46,852 nucleotides of DNA, from NCBI GenBank assembly GCA_016209635.1, contig JACQWC010000258.1, positions 1 through 46,852 of the forward strand, given 5' to 3'. A program made the position numbers and the translations under genes. The stretch comes from Candidatus Rokuibacteriota bacterium (GTDB lineage: Bacteria > Methylomirabilota > Methylomirabilia > Rokubacteriales > CSP1-6). Within the stretch, counting starts at the first letter, position 1; every line of letters starts with the position of its first letter. Shown one piece after another: positions 254-1,884 of this stretch. Under the pieces are notes generated by a model that was not told where the DNA came from, did no database searches, and worked only from the letters and a program-made list of their open reading frames with translations.

Positions 254-338
<85 letters not shown>

Positions 339-371
339 TTCCTCGCTTCGCCCTGCCAAAAGGAGACGGCG

Positions 372-865
372 ATGGCGCGAGCCAGCGCGTTCATCCTCGA
401 CAGTGGCGACACGTTCCCGGCGCTCGGCTTCGAGACGGTCGCCCACGGTCGGGTCGCGCTGCCCGATGGCTTCGGCGACGGCTGGGGCGTGTTCCTCGCC
501 TATCGCGCCCACTGGTGAACGTACTGCAAGCAGCAGTTGGCTGCCTTCGAGAGGGCGCGGGATCGGCTCAGGGACGAGGGGATCGCGTCGTCGCGGCGTC
601 GACGGACCCCCGTGAGAAGGCGAGGGAGACCGTCGTCGAGTTCGGTCTCGGGTTTCCGGTCGGCTACGGCCTCTTCCTCGAGGAGACGGCGCGCGCCCTC
701 GGCGCCTTCTACGAGACGCGGCGCGGAATCCTCCACGCGACGGGCTTCCTCGTGAAGCCCGACCGCACGATCGCCGTCGCCCAGTACAGTTCGGGGCCGA
801 TCGGCCGCCTCGTCTGGCAGGACCTCCTCGCCCTCGTCCAGTTCGGGAAGCGCCAGGCGAAATAG
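372..865 (+). CDS. Peroxiredoxin-like (AhpC/TSA, thioredoxin-fold) protein; candidate selenoprotein with in-frame UGA at 516-518 (UxxC) and an apparent -1 frameshift near 578-582
   Basis: Frame from 372 gives [48 protein letters not shown]-(TGA)[21 protein letters not shown]; the other frame continues [94 protein letters not shown]. Confidence 0.65.
530..544 (+). promoter_or_regulatory. SECIS-like stem-loop just downstream of the UGA
   Basis: GCAGC-AGTTG-GCTGC: perfect 5-bp stem with a 5-nt loop; loop G at +18 from the UGA, G in the second loop position followed by U. Confidence 0.5.
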
Positions 866-975: not shown

Positions 976-1884
976 ATGTCGATGACGCAACCGCTTCCCG
1001 TGCTCCAGCCGCCGACCCCGCTCGAGGGCCGGAAACCGCCGTGGCTCAAGGTGCGCGCTCCGGGCGGGCCGAGCTACATGCGGCTCAAGCACCTCGTGCG
1101 CTCGCTCAATCTCCACACCGTCTGCGAGGAGGCGCACTGTCCGAACATCGGCGAGTGCTGGGAGGATGCCACCGCGACGTTCATGCTCCTGGGGGATGTG
1201 TGCACGCGCAACTGCGGCTACTGCGCGGTGACGCACGGGACGCCGACGTGGGAGGACCGCGAGGAGCCCGAGCATATCGGCCGCGCCGTCGCCCGCCTGG
1301 GCCTCGAGCACATCGTGCTGACGTCCGTCAACCGTGACGACCTCGCGGACGGCGGCGCGACGCACTGGGCCGCGACGATCGGGGCCGTCCGCCGTCTGGC
1401 ACCGGGCTGCCGCGTCGAGGCGCTGATTCCCGACTTCCAGGGCCGCGTGCGAGACCTCGAGACGGTGATCACTGCGCGCCCCGACATCCTGAACCACAAC
1501 ACCGAAACGGTGCCGCGCCTCTACAAGGTCGCGCGCCACGGCGGGCGATACGAGCGGGCGCTCGCGCTGTTCCGGCACGCGCGGACGGTCGCGCCCGCGC
1601 TCGTGACGAAGTCCGGGATCATCCTCGGCCTTGGCGAGACGCGGGAGGAGCTGGTCGGGACCATGCGCGACCTCCTCGGCGTCGGGGTGCGCATCCTGAC
1701 GCTCGGCCAGTACCTCCGGCCCTCGGCGGTCCATCTGCCCGTCGCGAGGTACTACCACCCCGGAGAATTCGAGGAGCTGGCGGGGGTCGGGCGCGCCCTC
1801 GGCTTCGCGCACGTGGAGGCGGGGCCGCTCGTGCGGAGCTCGTACCACGCGAAGCGGCAGGCGGAGGCCGCGGGAGCGCGCTGA
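976..1884 (+). CDS. lipA: Lipoyl synthase
   Basis: CEEAHCPNIGECW and radical-SAM CTRNCGYCAV motifs; typical LipA length and C-terminus VRSSYHA. Confidence 0.97.
   Translation: MSMTQPLPVLQPPTPLEGRKPPWLKVRAPGGPSYMRLKHLVRSLNLHTVCEEAHCPNIGECWEDATATFMLLGDVCTRNCGYCAVTHGTPTWEDREEPEHIGRAVARLGLEHIVLTSVNRDDLADGGATHWAATIGAVRRLAPGCRVEALIPDFQGRVRDLETVITARPDILNHNTETVPRLYKVARHGGRYERALALFRHARTVAPALVTKSGIILGLGETREELVGTMRDLLGVGVRILTLGQYLRPSAVHLPVARYYHPGEFEELAGVGRALGFAHVEAGPLVRSSYHAKRQAEAAGAR

Follow-up and report, generated by a model that had tools for sequence, protein, structure and literature searches.

The gene at positions 372-865 of the window (the whole stretch of DNA analysed, 46,852 bp) is, judging from sequence comparison, very probably a copy, frameshifted by a single base, of a genuine selenoprotein gene of the UxxC Prx-like kind. 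Intact relatives of the gene, present in many related bacteria from soil and groundwater, would carry selenocysteine (Sec) at the UGA. The window belongs to a 4.16-Mb Rokubacteriales (Methylomirabilota) bin (G000:C222; 270 contigs, 92.6% complete, 7.9% contaminated), and the features of the locus are listed in Table 1. The initial annotation had read the TGA at 516-518 as Sec insertion and not as a nonsense mutation. This stands as a trait of the gene family, for which the TGA/Cys pattern of the column, the machinery of the genome and a conserved hairpin all speak strongly, but the window copy as sequenced cannot make the full selenoprotein. Codon 49, UGA, would be read as Sec in these relatives, with SelB-GTP and Sec-tRNA-Sec binding the 5-bp, G-containing hairpin 3' of the UGA, as suggested by the conservation of the element and the completeness of the machinery. 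The product would be a ~164-aa peroxiredoxin-fold thiol/selenol oxidoreductase in which Sec49 and Cys52 most likely form a selenenylsulfide during reduction of a peroxide or disulfide substrate. In the window copy, translation would halt at the UGA or end early past the frameshift, and an intact paralog in the same bin (contig C208), which can make the full selenoprotein, would supply the function if its contig is from the same organism.

Table 1. Features of the Prx-like locus in the window, its neighbours and its intact paralog
Feature	Position	Strand	Detail	Basis
tRNA-Leu(GAG)	254..338	+	upstream neighbour, outside the unit	
Shine-Dalgarno-like AGGAGA	361..366	+	5 nt upstream of ATG 372	sequence
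N-terminal half, Prx-like selenoprotein gene	372..584	+	codons 1-71, MARASAF...DEGI	PF00578
Sec codon UGA	516..518	+	UxxC first position	TGA in all close homologs
Bacterial SECIS hairpin	530..544	+	GCAGC-AGUUG-GCUGC	pairing in Sec genes, invariant codons
Frameshift	584..590	+	window one base short vs intact homologs examined	nucleotide alignment
C-terminal half in shifted frame	587..865	+	TAG stop 863-865	
lipA	976..1884	+	downstream neighbour, intact	
C208 paralog, intact	L095:8449-8940 (G000:C208)		67% to window copy	

The UGA column and the selenocysteine machinery

Homologs were sought with a query that has Cys at the TGA column and was bridged across the window lesion for searching only. 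With this Cys query we found 18 homologs in other genomes as well as the C208 paralog, and all of them have TGA at the Sec column, which makes it more than a chance stop. Thirteen of the homologs are at 68-75% and are in other Rokubacteriales and Methylomirabilota genomes, and the other five, at 35-39%, are in Methylomirabilia. All 18 and the C208 paralog are otherwise open, one of them with an extra adjacent TGA. A scan of named genomes identified further Sec forms in Thermodesulfobacteriota (Desulfobacterales and others), Nitrospinota, the ODZ_NOB7a bin and Verrucomicrobiales, and Cys forms (CPYC/CPFC) in Ktedonobacter, Dictyobacter, other Chloroflexota and alphaproteobacteria. The in-frame UGA is at the first UxxC position of a family that also has Cys homologs, as the initial annotation had proposed, and no residue other than Sec or Cys was seen at this column among the homologs scanned. 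The Sec/Cys state requires three changes on the tree, at least two of which are forced by well-supported branches. We note that at L055:2291-2296 (the same gene as L019, G058:C230) two TGA codons stand in a row (HUUPYC), the conserved Trp codon TGG having become TGA; either the UGA is double here or the sequence, from a short contig, is in error.

All four genes that the initial annotation had named for a search, selA, selB, selC and selD, are present in the window genome. Those for selB, selA (593.6 bits) and tRNA-Sec (69.7 bits, gathering score 47) are together on contig C168, and selD is on C160 (L097, G000:C160:8563-9507). The selD gene has an in-frame TGA of its own, and selenophosphate synthetase is here likely to be a selenoprotein itself. 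Among 100 genomes, the window genome and its relatives, selB is present in 87 and tRNA-Sec in 81. A strong full-length Prx-like match (E below 1e-27) is found in 19 genomes, and selB is in all 19 (in G025 as a fragment at a contig end).

The homolog loci compared do not share the tRNA-Leu/lipA neighbourhood found in the window. About 3.6 kb downstream of the C208 paralog lies what remains of the C-terminus of a third copy (L095:12515-12634). With 7.9% contamination in the bin, C208 may itself be a contaminant. In several genomes (L049, L051, L054, L094, L095) there is near the Prx-like gene a protein that we take to be DUF3179-like, and homologs of it flank the C208 copies. DUF3179 is among the families with selenoproteins (PMC13188914), and a functional link between this protein and the Prx-like gene is possible.

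A conserved hairpin downstream of the UGA

The initial annotation had pointed to a hairpin at 530-544 with a small loop and an early G, and we find there a 5-bp stem and a 5-nt loop (AGUUG) with G second, the apical loop beginning 16 nt past the UGA. In the bacterial SECIS model the loop is 3-9 nt and lies 16-37 nt from the UGA, the upper stem has at least 4 bp, there is a G in the first two loop positions, and the minimum free energy is at or below -7.5 kcal/mol (PMC13188914). The distance in the window is at the lower limit of this published model and the window hairpin alone is at -7.7 kcal/mol, in agreement with all of these values; the L064 form of the hairpin, at -5.9 kcal/mol, is above the energy limit.

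The hairpin is paired at all five positions in each of the 25 aligned Sec genes (columns 15-19/25-29), with slid controls pairing in no more than 52% of cells, and the Cys homologs (n=15) have 0-4 of the five pairs at these positions and never all. Fifteen Sec genes have G-C as the outer pair and the other 10 have U-A, which is one compensatory pair; the covariation consists of this single pair and is tied to a K/M/Q...A vs N...D amino-acid pair. The codons CAG CAG TTG GCT are invariant in the 15 Rokubacteriales-type genes. In the remainder of these genes TTG is rare (14 of 218 Leu codons), as is GCT (7 of 238 Ala codons), and we interpret the hairpin as a SECIS because such rare codons are invariant there. 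A search of the genome for the UGA-SECIS pattern, with two mismatches allowed, returned only the window copy and its paralog on C208. RNA folding, which had been proposed as a check, showed no unusual stability of the window hairpin on its own (z = -0.03), and a competing fold is preferred with the UGA-proximal bases free, the isolated hairpin not being the minimum-energy fold. The significance of the hairpin derives from its conservation and not from its energy.

The frameshift in the window copy

The frame from 372 had been taken to be broken only by the TGA (context YRAHW-TGA-TYC), and this does not hold. The span 372-865 is 494 bases, which is no multiple of 3, and past GI (~584) frame 0 loses its resemblance to the family and meets an additional TGA. 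A family-like C-terminus (...FGKRQAK) is readable from 587 in a different frame and ends at the TAG, and nucleotide alignment with eight intact homologs places the window one base short at ~584-590, such that there are two interruptions (the TGA and the frameshift) and not one. A single open frame apart from the UGA is present in the homologs and the C208 paralog but not in the window copy, and we therefore file the family as Prx-like UxxC and the window copy as a broken copy only. Decay of the downstream frame, which the initial annotation had named as grounds for rejecting Sec insertion, is present in a limited form, as one indel in the window copy, but there are no other clear signs of decay.

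The terminal branch of the window copy (lesion codon masked) has a ratio of first plus second to third position length of 0.115, within the range of the intact copies; the test is coarse, with third-position lengths near saturation for several rows. Because purifying selection on the window copy is normal, the lesion would be either very recent or an assembly error, and we reject an old pseudogene since the window branch is as constrained as the intact copies. Two of 74 conserved columns are changed in the window copy (P50T and G154A). It is also the only copy with A at base 519, directly after the UGA; 23 of the 25 aligned Sec genes have UGA-C and one has G. UGA followed by C is a weak stop context. 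These three departures (P50T, UGA-A and G154A) could be early decay.

A young pseudogene and an assembly error fit the observations about equally. We put at even chances that the window copy is a young pseudogene, dispensable through the C208 paralog and making no selenoprotein, a refinement that keeps Sec in the family. The one-base frameshift, the intact paralog and further C-terminal remnant in the bin, and UGA-A and P50T are in its favor, and the neighboring genes tested (lipA, nuoD, nuoG, nuoH and the PDH operon) look intact, which speaks against a generally error-rich contig. However, the window copy lacks a second decay lesion, and with constraint equal to that of intact copies the pseudogene would have to be very young. 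Slightly short of even chances is an assembly or sequencing error, with the window gene really intact and expressed as a second Prx-like selenoprotein; the normal constraint on either side of the lesion, the conserved SECIS and start region, and the fragmentation of the bin point in this direction, but the site at 584-590 is outside any long homopolymer and the intact neighbors count against it. None of the 100 relatives searched is from the same genus. That the TGA is itself a nonsense mutation or sequencing error and not Sec is highly improbable, for although the window copy has another lesion, every close homolog has TGA in the same column, the 25 aligned Sec genes have a conserved SECIS, and the genome has the full Sec machinery.

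Fold, catalysis and class of the protein

The protein, bridged across the window lesion, matches PF00578 at 52.3 bits against a gathering score of 26. An AlphaFold model of the intact homolog L016 (pLDDT 92, pTM 0.89) has peroxiredoxins as its best PDB matches (TM up to 0.81). Profile alignment places U49 on the peroxiredoxin Thr, C52 on the peroxidatic Cys, R45 on the motif Pro and the invariant R146 on the GR-motif Arg, with the roles of these four residues being those known in peroxiredoxins, and Sec49 stands at the beginning of the active-site helix (50-68). A redox role via a Sec49-Cys52 pair is likely given the predicted fold, the residue alignment and the helix position of Sec49, and the product could be either peroxidase-like or disulfide-reductase-like. 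Since Sec replaces Thr while both Cys52 and the Arg of the active site are retained, it is conceivable, though rather unlikely, that peroxide is attacked by Cys52, which Sec49 then resolves by forming a selenenylsulfide inside a single CxxC-like motif, making the protein a peroxidase rather than a Sec49-led thioredoxin-like disulfide reductase.

Prx-like thiol:disulfide oxidoreductases of PF00578 with UxxC/UxxU are confidently predicted selenoproteins; they include GOS 'Prx-like 1' and the Prx-like family already known from the Sargasso Sea study, whose motif is UxxC rather than TxxU (PMC1088965, PMC2398784, PMC13188914). The Prx-like gene belongs to this already known kind, with which it shares PF00578, UxxC instead of TxxU, a SECIS directly 3' of the UGA and widespread Cys homologs, the match being by domain, motif and SECIS and not by sequence to the published representative WP_010940744.1. 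It differs in its hosts, here mainly Rokubacteriales, and in the frameshift of the window copy. Canonical Sec or Cys peroxiredoxins (PxxxTxxC/U) share the fold, the peroxidatic Cys and the GR-motif Arg, but this class is rejected because the PxxxT/SxxC motif is lacking, with Arg45 and Sec49 standing for its Pro and Thr. SelL-related redox proteins (NF040769) are related thioredoxin-fold redox proteins, and this assignment is rejected at 23.5 bits against a cut-off of 120; no NCBIfam family is above its cut-off for the Prx-like protein.

These findings add a well-supported Sec family to the Rokubacteriales, within a phylum, Methylomirabilota, lately noted for very large predicted selenoproteomes, including a bin with 63 predicted selenoprotein genes (PMC13188914). 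Beside the active site, codons and even amino acids are held fixed by the conserved SECIS. Standard gene callers split or drop UGA-containing genes such as this one, and telling Sec recoding from true frameshifts in metagenome bins needs homolog alignments.
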